From positions 1-54,487 of the forward strand of contig JASGMC010000003.1 in the NCBI GenBank assembly GCA_030156625.1: DNA of 54,487 bases. The letters run 5' to 3'. Source of the DNA: Methanoculleus sp. GTDB taxonomy: Archaea > Halobacteriota > Methanomicrobia > Methanomicrobiales > Methanoculleaceae. The notes under the pieces are model-generated. The model had not been told where the DNA came from. It saw only the letters and a list, made by a program, of their open reading frames with translations, and made no database searches. The position numbers were made by a program, and so were the translations under genes. Shown here in pieces: positions 15,054 to 50,251 of this stretch (position 1 is the stretch's first letter; the number at the start of each line of letters is the position of its first letter).

Positions 15054-15734
15054 TCACTCCCGGCCGGTCTTCGGCATCCACCCGGCCGCCGCCACCAGGC
15101 GGGCGATCAGGACGGCGATGTAGAGAGTTCCGCTCACGGTCTCGAGGACGGCGAGCGACCGGGCCTGGTCGGTGACCGGCGTGATGTCGCCGTAGCCGAG
15201 CGTCGCAAGGGTGACGAAACTGTAGTAGATGAACGTGGGAAAGGTGAAGGCGCCGTCTCCCGACTCGGCCGAGAACGACCCGGGATTGACGCTCTCGACG
15301 AGGCCGTAGGCGTTCGCCCAGGTCAGGCCCATGAGGAGGTAGACGGATACCGCCCCGTAGATGGTGTCGGTGGTGATCTGGCGTTCTCCGAGCACCCGCA
15401 GGAGGCCGACGAGCGCGGTGAAAGCGTAGAAGAGGAGCGTGAATATGCTCTCGGCGCTGCTAAAGATGGGGGTTCCGGTGATGACGTGGAGCCAGCCGAA
15501 GCCGAAGGCGGGGATCGCGAGGAGGACGGCGATCACGACCTGCCTCCGCCGATTGCTCACGGCGTAGACCCCGGTGATCAGGACGAAGGACGAGAGCACT
15601 TTCAGGGCGGCCGGGCCGGTCGGCCCTGCACTCACATAGGGGTAGACGGCGAGCAGGAGAATGAGGGATGCGAGCAGGTAGTGGAACTGCATCGCCCTGG
15701 CGCGGGCGAGGTACCGGGCGAGAAGGCCCTTCAC
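15054..15734 (-). CDS. Potassium channel family protein
   Basis: The 226-residue membrane protein has about six hydrophobic segments and, near residue 180, a pore loop with YYSFVTLATLGYGDITP, the K+ selectivity filter (TLGYGD). There is no cytosolic RCK/TrkA domain, so gating must come from elsewhere. The GTG start at 15734 overlaps the kinase stop as GTGA, with GGATGA six bases before, so it is translated together with the Ser/Thr kinase. A kinase-regulated potassium channel is the simplest reading of the operon (inference). The last helix is followed by only a short tail. Confidence 0.88.
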   Translation of the reverse strand: MKGLLARYLARARAMQFHYLLASLILLLAVYPYVSAGPTGPAALKVLSSFVLITGVYAVSNRRRQVVIAVLLAIPAFGFGWLHVITGTPIFSSAESIFTLLFYAFTALVGLLRVLGERQITTDTIYGAVSVYLLMGLTWANAYGLVESVNPGSFSAESGDGAFTFPTFIYYSFVTLATLGYGDITPVTDQARSLAVLETVSGTLYIAVLIARLVAAAGWMPKTGRE

Positions 15735-17059
15735 GATTCTTCATCCCCTGCGCCGCCTGTCACGGCCTTGATTGCATCGAGCACCTCTCCGGCGGACTGG
15801 TAACGGTCGGCAGGATCCTTTGCAAGGCACCGGAGGATGACCCGGTCGAATCCTGCGAATCCCGGATTGATCTCTCCGGGGGGGACCGGCTGCTCGTCGA
15901 GGGTTGCCCCGGCAAATCCGGCGAGGCTCTCGCGGGCGAAGGGAGCCTTCCCCGTCGCCATTTCGTAGAAGACAGCACCGAGCTGGTAGATGTCGGTCCG
16001 AGCATCGGTCCTGCCGAATCGCTCCGGGGCGATCTGCTCCGGGGCCGCATACGCGAGGGTGAACCCGGCGACGCTGGTATCCCGGCTTGCTGTCAGCGTC
16101 GTGCTCATGCCCCAGTCGGTGATCTTCGGCGTCGTCAGGTCGTCGGAGAGAAGGATGTTTCTCGGCTTGATATCCCGGTGGATCACGCCCCTCTCGTGGG
16201 CGTAGGCAAGCCCGGCGGCGATGCCTGCAGCGATGCGGGCGGCGGTCTCCACCGGAAGGGGTTTGTCCAGCTGCTCCAGGGTCCGGGGCAGAAACTCCAT
16301 CTCGACGAACGGTACCGGGAGGATGTTGACCGAGTAAACCGCCACGATATTTTCGTGAACGAGATCTTCCCAGAACCGCATCTCCTTCATGAAGGTCTTT
16401 CCCGTCGCCTCGTCGTAGGTGACCGGGATCTTCACCGCTACGGTTCGACGGTCATCGCGCCTGACCGCCGAGAAGACCTGTCCGAGCCCCCCTCTCCCGA
16501 CGAAGGCGACCCGTTCGTACCGCTCTGCAAGTTCGGGCGGGAACCCGGCAGGGTGGGAGAGCACGGTCCGGTAGGCATCGGGGAAGATGGTCGTGCCCGT
16601 CGGTGCTTCGCCGCCGGTATCCGGTACCCCCAGGTACCGGGTGCTGAGAACGAAGGCGCCGGCGAGCAGGATGAGGGCCAGGGCAGCCCAGGCCCAGGGG
16701 AACGGGTCAGTGACCGTCCGGCTGTTCTCTTCGGGCGCATCACTGCCCGTCCCGGTTTCCGTCGCCTCCGGCGTCGCTTCTGTCTGCTCCCCTTCCGGGG
16801 TATCGGCAGGCGTGACGGTCTCTTCGGGCGAGGGCAGAGGGGTGGGCGTCTCCTCCGGCGTATCCCTGGCCTTGTTCTGGCCGGGAGCGGCGCTTTTATC
16901 GTCGCCCGGGGTCTTTTCTGCAGATTCTATGCCCTGGGGAGAGGCGCTCGAGTGCTCCGGAGGTCCTCCCGCGCCCGAGACGGCGGGGCAGACGGCGGCG
17001 AGGAGCAGGGCAGTGACGAGGATCAGGACGGCCGCCCGTCCGGCCCGTTCAGGCGGCAC
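15731..17059 (-). CDS. Membrane-anchored Ser/Thr protein kinase (Hanks type)
   Basis: The product (about 442 residues) has a signal-like helix near the N-terminus (VLILVTALLLAAVCPAVSG), a Pro/Thr/Glu-rich extracytoplasmic segment of about 90 residues, a transmembrane helix (WAWAALALILLAGAFVL), and a cytosolic kinase domain. Kinase motifs: glycine loop VGRGGLGQVF, TVAVKIPV Lys, VIHRDIKPRNILL catalytic loop, TDWG in place of DFG, and YAAPEQIA. All catalytic residues are present, so it should be active. This layout resembles bacterial PknB-type receptors but with a low-complexity outer part in place of PASTA domains. The GTG at 17059 is chosen as the first start after the upstream FHA gene's main body; it overlaps that gene by 11 bases and has a poor ribosome site. 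Confidence 0.85.
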   Translation of the reverse strand: MPPERAGRAAVLILVTALLLAAVCPAVSGAGGPPEHSSASPQGIESAEKTPGDDKSAAPGQNKARDTPEETPTPLPSPEETVTPADTPEGEQTEATPEATETGTGSDAPEENSRTVTDPFPWAWAALALILLAGAFVLSTRYLGVPDTGGEAPTGTTIFPDAYRTVLSHPAGFPPELAERYERVAFVGRGGLGQVFSAVRRDDRRTVAVKIPVTYDEATGKTFMKEMRFWEDLVHENIVAVYSVNILPVPFVEMEFLPRTLEQLDKPLPVETAARIAAGIAAGLAYAHERGVIHRDIKPRNILLSDDLTTPKITDWGMSTTLTASRDTSVAGFTLAYAAPEQIAPERFGRTDARTDIYQLGAVFYEMATGKAPFARESLAGFAGATLDEQPVPPGEINPGFAGFDRVILRCLAKDPADRYQSAGEVLDAIKAVTGGAGDEES

Positions 17060-17849
17060 CCGGCACCGGCACCCCCCCGGGAACAACGAAGACGAGGGTT
17101 GCTCCCCGCGCGCCCTTCGCGAGTTCGACGAGGTCCCCGTCGTGGAGTTCCCGCCGTGTGCCCCGGTCAAGCGGCGTGCCGTTCACGAATGTGCCGCCGG
17201 TGCTTCCGCAGTCTTCGACGAGCCAGGCACCGTCCCGGCGGCGGGTGAGCCTGGCGTGCGGTCTCGAGACGCGGGTGACCGCCGCGTACTCCTCACCGAG
17301 GACGATCTCCTGCGCGGAACGGTCGGGTGTGTCCGGGTCCGCCCGCCCTATGTCGATGCTGTCGTGCCCGAGCGGGAAGACCCTGCCGTCCTCCGCCCCG
17401 CCGAGGAGGATGACGACCGGAAGTTGCCCGGCGAACTCCCCCGAGAGCGTCTCCCGGACACCGGCGAGTTTCTTCGCGAGCACGGCATCCGTGAGCGTCA
17501 GTTTCAGGTTCGAGAAGAGCCCGAGGCTCCTCGTGATCGCCTCGAGCCCTCCGGGCACGAGCGAGTATTTCCAGACCGGGTGGATCCCTTTTGCGGTCGG
17601 GCGCGAGAGGCCGGCCTCTTTGCGGACGACCCCGATGCTCAGCAGCTTGTCGAGATGCTTCTTTGTGTTCTCGTAACTCGTCTCGATCTCGTACGAGATC
17701 TGCCGGACGTCCTTTGGCCTTCGTTCGATGACCTTCAGGATCTTCAAGCGTGTGCTGCTGCTCAGCACGTCCAGGTATTCGGAGAGTTCCTGCAGATCGT
17801 CGGTGTCTATATCGAGGATCAGCGTCCTTGAGTCATTGTCGTCGGTCAT
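17049..17849 (-). CDS. HTH-FHA protein (putative phospho-dependent transcription regulator)
   Basis: The 266-residue protein begins with an ArsR-like winged helix (about residues 22-100: LSSSTRLKILKVIERRPKDV, YENTKKHLDKLLSIGVV) and ends with an FHA domain (about 170-255: DIGRADPD, VSRPHARLTRR, VEDCGSTGGTFVNGTPL). FHA domains bind phosphothreonine, and the next gene encodes a Ser/Thr kinase, so the regulator is a likely substrate or reader of that kinase. An HTH and FHA on one chain would turn kinase activity into a transcriptional response (inference). The ATG at 17849 gives the natural HTH N-terminus; the frame upstream is a shadow. Confidence 0.85.
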   Translation of the reverse strand: MTDDNDSRTLILDIDTDDLQELSEYLDVLSSSTRLKILKVIERRPKDVRQISYEIETSYENTKKHLDKLLSIGVVRKEAGLSRPTAKGIHPVWKYSLVPGGLEAITRSLGLFSNLKLTLTDAVLAKKLAGVRETLSGEFAGQLPVVILLGGAEDGRVFPLGHDSIDIGRADPDTPDRSAQEIVLGEEYAAVTRVSRPHARLTRRRDGAWLVEDCGSTGGTFVNGTPLDRGTRRELHDGDLVELAKGARGATLVFVVPGGVPVPGAA

Positions 17850-18056
17850 AGGCTTTCGTGCGGGACTTCGTTGCAGTATATTTTCACGACGTCGCTGATG
17901 AAGGTTATGCACCCCGTCCGGCTGGCTCGCCTCGCCACACGACCCTACGGCTGCAATGCCGGGCCGCTGCCCCGGGGCGGCACTGTAGAATATATGGTTG
18001 TTGTCCGGATCCGGTCCCGGATCATGTTTTATACGAGAGGGTTGATCGGGGGTGGC

Positions 18057-18341
18057 ATGCTTGGAGAGATTGAGACCCTGCAGCAGCGGGCTGTGATGGT
18101 GGAGATCGAGGAGCTGATCCAGTCGACGCCCGACTATGCCGATATCAGGGAATCGCTCCGGTCGTTGAACTTCATACCGGAGCAGGACGATGCCGATGCC
18201 GCGATCTGGGTGCATCCCGGCCTCAGGATATTTGTCCTCTTGCAGATGAACCTCGGAGGCGGGTATACGGGGTACAGGGTGGCAACCTACGAGGACCTGG
18301 AACGCCGCGAGGGGGAGTCTGCCATCTACAACGCCCGGTAA
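18057..18341 (+). CDS. Unrecognised 94-residue protein, paralogue 1
   Basis: The small acidic protein is not assigned to a family. It shares its whole plan with the next gene: an N-terminal helix (AVMVEIEELIQSTPDYADI), RESLRSLNF, a Trp in AAIWVHPG, then FVLLQMNLGGGYTGYRVATY and EDLE. The equivalent segments of the paralogue are YDGIRAGLEALGF, LALWESG, FVVVHTD and RDYEVKTFEETE. The ATG at 18057 is preceded by GGGGGTG and by TATA-like TTTTATAC about 30 bases earlier. It is divergent from the HTH-FHA signalling operon, with about 200 bases between. No membrane or metal motif is seen. Confidence 0.75.
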   Translation: MLGEIETLQQRAVMVEIEELIQSTPDYADIRESLRSLNFIPEQDDADAAIWVHPGLRIFVLLQMNLGGGYTGYRVATYEDLERREGESAIYNAR

Positions 18342-18431
18342 CGGCTTTTTCCTCGTAGCCCGCGGCGCCCCCTCTTCTCAACCATCCCTGCCGGGTCAGG
18401 TTTATCTGGGCGGATGCGGTATGGTTCTCGC

Positions 18432-18698
18432 ATGCCCAAACGAGTACAGATTGACCGGGAGGAACAGGAGGCCATGATGGGCCGTGTCCGGGAGATGATC
18501 GCCGCAAACGCCACCTACGACGGGATCCGTGCGGGCCTCGAGGCTCTCGGCTTCCGGGCGAAGGAGGACAGGCCCGCCCTTGCCCTCTGGGAGAGCGGCG
18601 AGCACGAACTCTTTGTCGTGGTCCATACCGATCCGAAGACCGGCAGGGTGCGGGATTACGAGGTGAAGACGTTCGAGGAGACGGAGGGGTTCGAGTAG
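18432..18698 (+). CDS. Unrecognised 88-residue protein, paralogue 2
   Basis: This is the second member of a tandem pair with the gene at 18057. Similarity is clearest in the middle and end (IRAGLEALGF, ALWESG, FVVVHTD, RDYEVKTFEE). A TATA-like GGTTTATC at about 18398-18405 would place transcription near 18425-18432, favouring the ATG at 18432 (MPKRVQIDREEQ) over that at 18414. The gene has its own promoter, so the pair is duplicated but not obviously one operon. Its 3' end overlaps the 3' end of the convergent small membrane-protein gene by about 43 bases. Function unknown. Confidence 0.7.
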   Translation: MPKRVQIDREEQEAMMGRVREMIAANATYDGIRAGLEALGFRAKEDRPALALWESGEHELFVVVHTDPKTGRVRDYEVKTFEETEGFE

Positions 18699-47632: not shown

Positions 47633-48211
47633 TTATAGGTCCCACCGTTTTTCAATACACCGATAACAGAAGTTGATCGTCGGTTTGAAGGTAGTATCAA
47701 TTCGCGTATAGTATTCGATATCCCACTCGCACTCTTTTCCGGCAATCAGTCCCTTGCATACGTTTCCGGCGCTCCCTGCGATGCAGTCCATAAGTCCGTT
47801 CTGGACAAGGAGCATGACATCCTGATGGTCCTTTATTCCATGGTCCATGAGTGCGGTGAGTCGTTCCAGTTCCATAGAGACGGACTGTATCAGGTTGGCC
47901 GGTTCGTCATCCCTGGGCATTGCGAGGACGAAGACATGAGCCACACTCCGATCGATCAGTTGTACGCTCAAGCGACGATCATATATGGGGTCCGATGGAT
48001 TTCGCGCTTCTTGAGGTCTATCGTCTAAGTCTTCCGATATGCACGCATTGAGGTAACCATGCTGCCTGAGGGTCTCCCTCAGCCTGAGCAGGTCGTTCTT
48101 TCTCTCCTGGTGAAAAGAGCCGTAAATGCCGATGGGGAGATCTCGCTTCAATCTCTCGAAACGAGTGCGAGATGTATTCTCTCTGTTCGAGCGTCCCCCC
48201 GGAGGAGCCAT
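47633..48211 (-). CDS. Unrecognised 192-residue island protein
   Basis: The protein has an alpha/beta opening (DLPIGIYGSFHQERKNDLLR, LRETLRQHGYLNACISEDL) followed by SVQLIDRSVAHVFVLAMPRD, a pattern seen in nucleoside 2-deoxyribosyltransferase- and TIR-like folds that bind nucleotides, and it ends in a Cys-containing part (CKGLIAGKECEW, INFCYRCIEKRWDL). A similar layout occurs in uncharacterised haloarchaeal proteins (possibly DUF7509). Active-site residues cannot be assigned. A TATA-like element near 48240 about 28 bases before ATG 48211 suggests a leaderless mRNA. It diverges from the winged-helix gene across a region with inverted repeats. A defence role would suit the island but is only inference. 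Confidence 0.65.
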   Translation of the reverse strand: MAPPGGRSNRENTSRTRFERLKRDLPIGIYGSFHQERKNDLLRLRETLRQHGYLNACISEDLDDRPQEARNPSDPIYDRRLSVQLIDRSVAHVFVLAMPRDDEPANLIQSVSMELERLTALMDHGIKDHQDVMLLVQNGLMDCIAGSAGNVCKGLIAGKECEWDIEYYTRIDTTFKPTINFCYRCIEKRWDL

Positions 48212-48244
48212 TAAGAAAGTATTATCATCGCGATATTAGAATTA

Positions 48245-48308
48245 TTAGTTACACAATACTAACCAATATTGGCGATAGGGTTAATATCAGTTAGCCTTAT
48301 GTAACTAA
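48245..48308. promoter_or_regulatory. Shared divergent promoter with inverted repeats
   Basis: TTAGTTAC (48245-48252) and GTAACTAA (48301-48308) are exact reverse complements, and between them TAACC and GGTTA form a second nested pair around AATATT. TATA-like ATTAGAATTATT and GTTAATAT elements face left and right. The downstream gene encodes a winged-helix protein, a plausible ligand for these sites. Confidence 0.45.
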
Positions 48309-48329
48309 TGTCCGTGTTGGGGGTGAGGT

Positions 48330-48974
48330 ATGGAGCAGGCAGTAGTTGAAAAATTCCTGAACGAAGTCCCCTATGAGGCCCGGGCTGCTGTGATGGAACT
48401 GAATAGCGATCTCCGGTGGGCCGTGTACGTTGCCCTGGTGCTCGAGGGCAGGAAGTACTTCAGCGAGATTAAAGAGGAGTTCAAGGCGAACCCGAACACC
48501 ATCGGCCCGGTGCTGAAAGGTCTTGTCGACGGCGGGCTTGTAGCACGAAAGATCGCCAAACTCGAGGATCTTGCCGATAAGCGGAAGGTGTTTTACGAGC
48601 CGACCGATCTGGGGCTGAGGCTGTTTGGGGTGCTGAACGATGTTGTCATTCCCGGGGGGCAGGCGCCCCGGGGGTCGCGTGTCGAGGTAGAGGCGGGATC
48701 GGCTGCAGGCACAGGGACGAGGGTGAGTCCCGGGCTGAGTTCGCCGGGCTGCTCCTGGATCGGCTGCAGGCACAGGGACGAGGGGGGATACGGAGATCAG
48801 AGGGAGATACGCGGGGCAACCGGAGATAACGACATCGGGAAGTGTTGCAGAACCGGGAATACGGTGGAGGCGCATAGGGCGACCAAGGATAACGGCATTG
48901 AGGAATGCTTCGGTGGTGAGCAAACCCCGGGAAGCAACGCGGGGGATCCGGAACAGGACACTCAGGAGGAATAG
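48330..48974 (+). CDS. Winged-helix protein whose frame runs on into the island repeat
   Basis: The first 112 residues form an ArsR/PadR-like winged helix: VMELNSDLRWAVYVALVLEG, YFSEIKEEFKANPNTIGPVL, KGLVDGGLVARKIAKLEDLA, VFYEPTDLGLRLFGVL. From codon 112 (48665) the frame reads the 305-base repeat, giving about 100 Gly/Arg/Thr-rich residues without any resemblance to a family. The repeat probably replaced the original end of the gene. ATG 48330 has a strong GGGTGAGGT directly before. The HTH part may still fold and bind the inverted repeats upstream. Confidence 0.7.
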   Translation: MEQAVVEKFLNEVPYEARAAVMELNSDLRWAVYVALVLEGRKYFSEIKEEFKANPNTIGPVLKGLVDGGLVARKIAKLEDLADKRKVFYEPTDLGLRLFGVLNDVVIPGGQAPRGSRVEVEAGSAAGTGTRVSPGLSSPGCSWIGCRHRDEGGYGDQREIRGATGDNDIGKCCRTGNTVEAHRATKDNGIEECFGGEQTPGSNAGDPEQDTQEE

Positions 48975-49027
48975 AGCCGGGTGATGTAGCTATGACGGAG
49001 GGGGCGCTGCCCGGTTGGCGGGAGCGG
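48665..49027. repeat. About 305-base island repeat, copy 2
   Basis: Second copy of the element at 46830-47136. It carries an internal tandem duplication of 61 bases: GGATCGGCTGCAGGCACAGG begins at about 48697 and again at 48758, which accounts for the greater length. Its left end is fused to the winged-helix gene and its right end (after GGCGGGAGCGG) to sequence unrelated to copy 1, with no ICMT part. The boundaries therefore define the unit independent of its neighbours. Confidence 0.75.
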
Positions 49028-49183
49028 TTCTGGCCAGGTTCGTCGCGGGGCTCATTTGTATGTTGCGCCAACACGGTCCCGTTCGATGAGATTATTGAGC
49101 TTCCGGTATTCGACAACAAATAAAATTCTTTATCTAAACCATAAAGTTTGTTAGATACTTAATCAAAGCAGTCACTGATAGGA

Positions 49184-50251
49184 ATGAATACAGATCAAAA
49201 AGTCTTGGCGCTTTTTATCGACTTTGAAAATATTGAGCGAGGTTTGAAAAGTCAGTATAAAACTGACTTTCAAATTCAACCGATTATCGAAAAGTTATCC
49301 GAAGTGGGAGCGATCCGTGTTCGGAAGGCCTATGCCGATTGGGTTCTGAATAAAAAGTACCGGGAGCCCCTCATGAATTACGGGTTGGAACTTGTTGAAA
49401 AGCCCGCTATATTCAGTAACGGAAAAAATGGCGCAGATATTAAGTTAGCCATTGATTCGGTCGAGACAGCAATAAATAATCCACACATCAATACCTTTGC
49501 AATTGTTTCGGGTGACAGCGATTTTCTTTCTCTCATTCAAAAATTGCGAGAGTTAGGCAAATATATTATTATCATCAGTGGTGCGGCATTTACAAGCAAA
49601 TTGATGATGAAAAATTGTGATGAGTTTATTTCCTATGAACTTATTGCCGATATCAAAGGGAAAGGCCAGAAGGAAGATCTTAGCCTTGAGACCGAGGTTT
49701 CAGAGGCAATTGAATTGTTACGGAATGCTGTCAGAATCTTGGAGGACGAAGGGAAAAAGACTGATTTTGCAAGTATCAAGTTCAAGATATTACAATTGGA
49801 CCCCTCTTTTACAGAGAAGAAAATCGGGTTTTCGAGCTTTGGTAGTTTCATCAAGTCTGTGAGCGAAAATAAACAACTTGATATAGAGATCGATCTCATC
49901 AATGGAATCTGGTATGTGAAATCAAACTTTACTGATGACGACAACGAGGATTATGAAACCCGTACCCCTATCAAGAAGGAATGGAAGATAATTCTAGATA
50001 CTATACAGACATTCTTTGAAGAAGGAAGAGGGAAAAAGACCGAAGGAAATGCATGGATATTGCAGGCATATCTCAATAAAAGGAGAAATTTCGGATTGCT
50101 TCCTCTCTCAAATGATGCCCTTGACGATGCAATTCAAGTGCTCATCAATAAAGGGCTGCTGATACAGCAAGAAGAGGCTAAACATTCCCCCTATTCAGTA
50201 CCGGATGATTTCGAACAAAGGAAAAACGTCTTCCTAGAGGGTATAGAGTGA
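49184..50251 (+). CDS. NYN-domain (PIN-like) protein with OST-HTH/LOTUS-like C-terminus
   Basis: The 355-residue protein begins with a NYN/LabA-like nuclease domain (about 1-150): ALFIDFENIERGLK, YADWVLNK, KNGADIKLAIDSVETA, FAIVSGDSDFLSLIQKLREL. The Asp residues of DFEN, GADIKLAID and SGDSDF form the metal site of PIN-like RNases. The second half has two helical winged modules (AVRILEDEGKKTDFASIKFK, and about 280-340) resembling OST-HTH/LOTUS RNA-binding domains. Codon use is AT-rich, quite unlike the GC-rich neighbours, a sign of recent transfer. It is the gene nearest the intact tRNA-Glu. A role in RNA degradation, perhaps against phage, is inference. Confidence 0.85.
   Translation: MNTDQKVLALFIDFENIERGLKSQYKTDFQIQPIIEKLSEVGAIRVRKAYADWVLNKKYREPLMNYGLELVEKPAIFSNGKNGADIKLAIDSVETAINNPHINTFAIVSGDSDFLSLIQKLRELGKYIIIISGAAFTSKLMMKNCDEFISYELIADIKGKGQKEDLSLETEVSEAIELLRNAVRILEDEGKKTDFASIKFKILQLDPSFTEKKIGFSSFGSFIKSVSENKQLDIEIDLINGIWYVKSNFTDDDNEDYETRTPIKKEWKIILDTIQTFFEEGRGKKTEGNAWILQAYLNKRRNFGLLPLSNDALDDAIQVLINKGLLIQQEEAKHSPYSVPDDFEQRKNVFLEGIE

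Follow-up and report, generated by a model that had tools for sequence, protein, structure and literature searches.

A conserved HTH-FHA regulator and membrane Ser/Thr kinase gene pair points to a phosphothreonine signalling module in methanogens of the order Methanomicrobiales

Methanogens of the order Methanomicrobiales appear to carry a two-gene signalling module, in which a PknB-like membrane Ser/Thr kinase (the writer) is paired with a DNA-binding HTH-FHA protein (the reader). We give a probability of roughly 0.6 to a reading in which the kinase would phosphorylate Thr9 of the HTH-FHA protein, the FHA domain would bind the phosphorylated residue and the HTH would respond, with a PP2C phosphatase as the reset and a K+ channel as an add-on. 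The domains, gene order, pairing, matched duplication, co-loss, invariant threonine and linked PP2C behind this reading all come from sequence comparison, and from them we infer phosphorylation of Thr9, self-binding, an effect on DNA binding and autoregulation.

The window, i.e., the whole stretch of 54,487 nucleotides that was analysed, corresponds to contig C3 in a metagenome-assembled genome of Methanoculleus that has 130 contigs and is 82% complete. The operon lies on its minus strand and begins with the gene for the HTH-FHA protein (17049..17849; 266 aa), followed by those for the kinase (15731..17059; 442 aa) and for a six-helix K+ channel (15054..15734; 226 aa). The kinase gene starts with GTG at 17059, inside the 3' end of the HTH-FHA gene and overlapping its stop codon, and its own stop shares a 4-bp GTGA with the start of the channel gene. 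All three reading frames are backed by related genomes, and the Pfam matches of all three proteins exceed the curated cut-offs. The initial annotation, which had described three overlapping genes for a phosphothreonine reader with a DNA-binding domain, a Hanks-type kinase with a membrane segment and low-complexity outer part, and a K+ channel lacking an RCK domain, was borne out in these respects: the first protein matches FHA (4.1e-15) and the ArsR-type HTH_5 (1.3e-6), the second matches Pkinase (2.1e-39) and has two hydrophobic segments, and the third matches Ion_trans_2 (1.1e-13) and has a TLGYGD filter and a short tail after its last helix. Its framing of all three genes as one unit is too wide, and the comparisons below indicate that the actual unit is the HTH-FHA/kinase pair. 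Divergent from the operon are two tandem 94-aa genes (18057-18341 and 18414-18698) which resemble each other and are conserved in the family only, the second giving no Pfam match. Further along the window, positions 48001-50000 differ from the remainder in that GC falls to 0.48 with a strong GC skew (0.18), possibly marking an acquired segment or RNA genes.

The pair is characteristic of the order. Eighty relatives of the HTH-FHA protein were retained, and the source records of 79 carry the name of a Methanomicrobiales taxon or of unspecified Euryarchaeota. One record labelled Thermoplasmata (L029) holds a Methanoregula-like HTH-FHA/kinase pair and is probably mis-binned. In a family search whose scope was the phylum, a profile match to the HTH-FHA protein was found in 162 of the 232 Methanomicrobiales genomes (a few being HTH-only), and no full-length HTH-FHA protein occurred outside the order among the matches listed (393 genomes of the phylum), where there were only short HTH-only matches and two FHA-only fragments in one genome. 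Of 100 HTH-FHA loci taken from Methanomicrobiales, 8 were cut by contig ends, and among the 92 that could be evaluated 89 have the kinase gene directly after the HTH-FHA gene on the same strand. The three exceptions are a locus with a convergent kinase (L069), one with no kinase within 1.9 kb (L064) and one in which a first HTH-FHA copy is followed by a PP2C gene and a second copy, with its kinase, stands 3 kb further on (L073). Many genomes have 2-5 HTH-FHA matches (some HTH-only), and each of 20 separately fetched copies, from genomes mostly holding several, has its own kinase beside it, one of them (L173) appearing to be the identical locus to L038. The identities of the two proteins correlate at r = 0.90 over 86 pairs, a value inflated by relatedness that was reached in 0 of 2000 permutations.

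Presence and absence follow the same pattern in the family Methanoculleaceae, where 30 of 40 genomes have an FHA domain, always a single one, and the only Hanks kinase and only FHA protein of a Methanoculleus genome are usually this pair. No Hanks kinase above the Pfam cut-off was found in three well-assembled genomes that lack the HTH-FHA protein and are 90-99% complete (G005, G019 and G033); G024, which also lacks the pair, has another kind of kinase. The two genes could be neighbours through shared descent with no joint function, and within Methanoculleus the whole neighbourhood is indeed syntenic. Across genera, however, the pair is retained and its other neighbours differ: beyond Methanoculleaceae the kinase is the sole neighbour left from the window's operon, the other flanking genes tested being gone, bar an isolated SIMPL-like match in L080. 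Paralogous copies at different loci each retain a kinase, and writer, reader and eraser domains co-localise, which together make descent without joint function very improbable.

The channel has a different history. Its pore matches that of KcsA, and the AlphaFold model is weak in the pore region, so that the protein is called a channel from its Pfam match, its GYGD filter and the match to KcsA. The last helix is followed by only some twelve residues, which leaves no room for an RCK domain, and the protein has no charged S4, as helix 97-115 is nearly uncharged; classification as an RCK-gated or an S4 voltage-gated K+ channel was rejected on these two features. The initial annotation had proposed that the kinase controls both this channel and transcription as one signalling unit. 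In favour of such a three-part unit, the channel gene follows the pair directly in Methanoculleus and the sister genus g3, the 4-bp overlap usual in Methanoculleus makes co-expression with the pair likely there, and no Methanoculleaceae genome carries the channel without the pair. However, synteny inside one family is weak functional evidence, and a full-length channel is linked to the pair in Methanoculleaceae only (genera g1 and g3). Several Methanoculleus species keep the pair without the channel; four genomes that are 95-99% complete (G012, G030, G032 and G035) have the pair without a full-length channel, and at two loci (L009 and L015) the channel gene is cleanly missing between the kinase and SIMPL genes. 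In other families, members of the channel family are encoded at a distance from the pair or on a separate contig (e.g., G084-G090, G123, G149 and G219), or occur in genomes that have no pair (G097-G099 and G214). The conservation of gene order extends across Methanomicrobiales for the pair and stops at Methanoculleaceae for the channel. We consider the three-part unit improbable and kinase control of ion flow unsupported, and the channel looks like a Methanoculleaceae accessory, not a defining part of the module. What stands of the proposed unit, and strongly so, is the connection from the kinase to a phosphothreonine-reading transcription factor, for which the evidence is conservation of both genes across the order, together with their matched duplication and joint loss.

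The likely point of contact between the two proteins is a single threonine. In the HTH-FHA protein, a winged helix-turn-helix DNA-binding domain (17559..17783, minus strand; approximately residues 23-97) is covered by Pfam HTH_5 (31-77) and HTH_45 (36-90) and modelled by AlphaFold as helices and a wing with high pLDDT, and it is followed by the FHA domain (17121..17354, minus strand). Across 60 non-redundant sequences (<85% identity) the phosphate pocket is kept, with R169 in 60, Ser or Thr at S195 in 59, H198 in 60 and N223 in 59. In the same alignment position 9 (codon 17823..17825, minus strand) is T in 60/60, with zero Ser substitutions; the preceding columns are highly variable (2.6 bits at -1) and the following ones are just hydrophobic, in 58, 56 and 47 sequences at +1, +2 and +3, respectively. 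Thr9 is also found in the diverged paralogues L166 and L170, which had dropped out of the alignment. Residues 1-14 have a pLDDT below 50 and are predicted to form a disordered tail, which in the AlphaFold model, itself modest (mean pLDDT 74, pTM 0.47), is placed outside the FHA groove.

The nearest folds are those of GarA, OdhI, EmbR and DgcB, the last bound to its own phosphorylated tail, and the nearest profile matches of the FHA protein are likewise of the GarA, OdhI or DgcB type. DgcB of Bdellovibrio and the actinobacterial regulators GarA and OdhI each supply their FHA domain with a ligand from within, a threonine in the N-terminal tail that has hydrophobic residues at +2/+3 (PMC6733907). 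The Methanomicrobiales protein resembles these three in its conserved tail threonine with hydrophobic +2/+3, self-binding being a candidate property here, and differs in its output, which is a DNA-binding domain rather than a metabolic enzyme or a GGDEF domain. The invariance of Thr9, the disordered tail, the kept pocket and the self-tail binding of DgcB, GarA and OdhI led us to propose a path from kinase to Thr9, to the FHA domain (in cis or in a dimer) and to the HTH. The membrane kinase, with an outer or membrane-embedded head and a cytoplasmic PknB-like catalytic domain, would respond to a signal and phosphorylate the product of the preceding gene, with Thr9 in the flexible N-terminal tail as the most likely site. 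Phospho-Thr9 would then be bound by the FHA domain, either within one molecule or across a dimer, and the winged HTH would be moved or paired differently as a result. This would alter how the regulator binds DNA at its target promoters, among them probably its own, before a PP2C phosphatase would reset the protein.

Alternatively, the FHA domain may dock on a phosphothreonine of the kinase, in the activation loop or juxtamembrane region, or of a third protein, with Thr9 having a structural part. The FHA domain could indeed bind the phosphothreonine of another protein instead of Thr9, and EmbR and GarA both contact their kinases through their FHA domains, such kinases being known to autophosphorylate (PMC9239209). 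The spacing between Thr9 and the HTH is fixed, so a purely structural role of Thr9 is possible. However, most sequences (49/60) have Ser at the conserved position that precedes APE in the activation loop, and FHA domains bind Ser poorly; there is no conserved juxtamembrane Thr, the other conserved kinase Thr (T356) is outside the activation loop, and Thr9 is invariant, and never Ser, within a variable disordered tail. A threonine of the kinase activation loop or juxtamembrane region, considered separately as the FHA ligand, was ruled out for want of conservation in 60 sequences. Docking on the kinase or on a third protein is accordingly held to be unlikely, and binding of the FHA domain to phospho-Thr9 is preferred.

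From its N-terminus the kinase consists of a hydrophobic segment, a Pro/Glu/Thr-rich outer linker, a second transmembrane segment and a C-terminal catalytic domain (15800..16519, minus strand) with VAVK, HRDIKPRN, DWG and APE motifs. The Hanks-type motifs are kept in the family (VAVK 59/60, HxDxKPxN 60/60, DxG 60/60 and APE 58/60), and the DFG motif reads DWG (16109-16117 in the window), as it does in the family sequences inspected, a substitution uncommon among PknB-like kinases. The solved structure nearest to this domain is PknB, and the nearest model is that of PASTA kinases. Compared with PknB-type transmembrane kinases, the protein has a reversed topology, no PASTA domains, DWG for DFG and a different set of heads. 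In Methanoculleus the outer head is the short low-complexity linker of approximately 90 residues (16703..16978, minus strand), replaced by a NosD-type beta-helix in Methanoregula relatives, by PEGA domains in L060 and L193, and by several apparent transmembrane segments in other relatives, while the catalytic domain is C-terminal in every kinase read. Such swapping of outer heads on a constant C-terminal catalytic domain is the pattern expected of a sensor kinase whose input can be exchanged. Two Methanoculleus genomes also have a second Hanks kinase in a very large frame (1841 aa; G011:C3:301016 and G026:C215:4365), with no extra FHA protein.

A candidate eraser is found next to the pair in several relatives. 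A PP2C gene abuts the kinase gene downstream on the same strand at L059, L171 and L193 (with overlapping genes at L193), abuts the HTH-FHA gene upstream on the same strand at L161, L164, L167, L180, L194 and L195, and stands between the two HTH-FHA copies at L073; L193-L198 were picked for a nearby PP2C and the remaining PP2C loci were not. The sole PP2C found in the window's own genome has its catalytic motifs and is on another contig, unlinked to the pair (L160; G000:C126, 111-1025, minus strand). Within Methanoculleus the co-occurrence of PP2C does not track the pair, since PP2C is also present in pair-less Methanoculleus.

The promoter of the operon offers a possible site for autoregulation. 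A promoter-proximal candidate operator, GCATAACCTTCATCA (17896..17910, minus strand), stands beside a conserved BRE/TATA-like element, GTGAAAATATACT (17875..17887, minus strand), which we infer to be the TATA box. In 13 of 14 Methanoculleus promoters the 15-bp element, GCAYAACCTTCATCA, adjoins the BRE/TATA-like motif at a near-fixed distance, 57-64 bp upstream of the start codon, and it is also kept in L015, where the upstream DNA is otherwise largely unrelated; it was not found in other genera. It may be an operator for autoregulation. A genome search with GCAYAACCTTCATCA returned one perfect copy and 11 copies with two mismatches, approximately the number estimated by chance, so no regulon is drawn from it. 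A different element, resembling an inverted repeat (CCTTATA...TATAGGG), precedes the HTH-FHA start by about 30-70 bp in several Methanoregula promoters (L022-L029) and is possibly a lineage-specific operator.

One of the closest known arrangements is bacterial. In Mycobacterium tuberculosis, the FHA-bearing regulator EmbR is encoded upstream of the membrane Ser/Thr kinase PknH in one operon (PMC9239209). The pair described here is similar in that a DNA-binding protein with a C-terminal FHA domain, for which EmbR is a top fold match, is encoded directly upstream of its kinase in one operon. The kinase domain of PknH is N-terminal, unlike the kinase domain here, which is C-terminal and behind the outer head. 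EmbR, of the SARP family, has an OmpR-type HTH and a BTAD, whereas by Pfam the archaeal protein has an ArsR-type HTH and an FHA domain only; lacking both the OmpR-type HTH and the BTAD, the pair falls outside the EmbR-PknH family. We know of no duplicated EmbR-PknH series comparable to the Methanomicrobiales pairs. Within archaea, the Arn network of Sulfolobales (ArnA/ArnB/ArnC/PP2A) places an FHA protein under a Hanks kinase and a phosphatase (PMC12852372). ArnA, however, has a zinc finger and no HTH, and its phosphorylated partner is the vWA protein ArnB, whereas the Methanomicrobiales protein has its own HTH and candidate site and, by Pfam, no zinc finger, and no vWA partner was noticed among the neighbours examined. 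No description of the HTH-FHA/kinase pair was found in the open-access literature, and on the comparisons made here it is best read as an archaeal writer-reader-eraser signalling module that resembles EmbR-PknH in logic.

Archaeal phospho-signalling is known mainly from Sulfolobales, and to our knowledge dedicated pathways from a Ser/Thr kinase to a transcription factor are rare in prokaryotes. Here, a candidate pair of this kind is widespread in one methanogen order, with matched paralogues and swapped sensor heads. More tentatively, Methanomicrobiales might possess a Ser/Thr counterpart of two-component systems, in which a dedicated sensor kinase with exchangeable heads would act on a cognate HTH-FHA regulator switched by the phosphothreonine of its own tail and reset by PP2C, with several duplicates per genome in some genera. 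Since the pair points to one residue, Thr9, a complete phosphorelay from input to promoter becomes directly testable, and a knockout would be clean in Methanoculleus, where a genome usually has no Hanks kinase and no FHA protein other than those of the pair.
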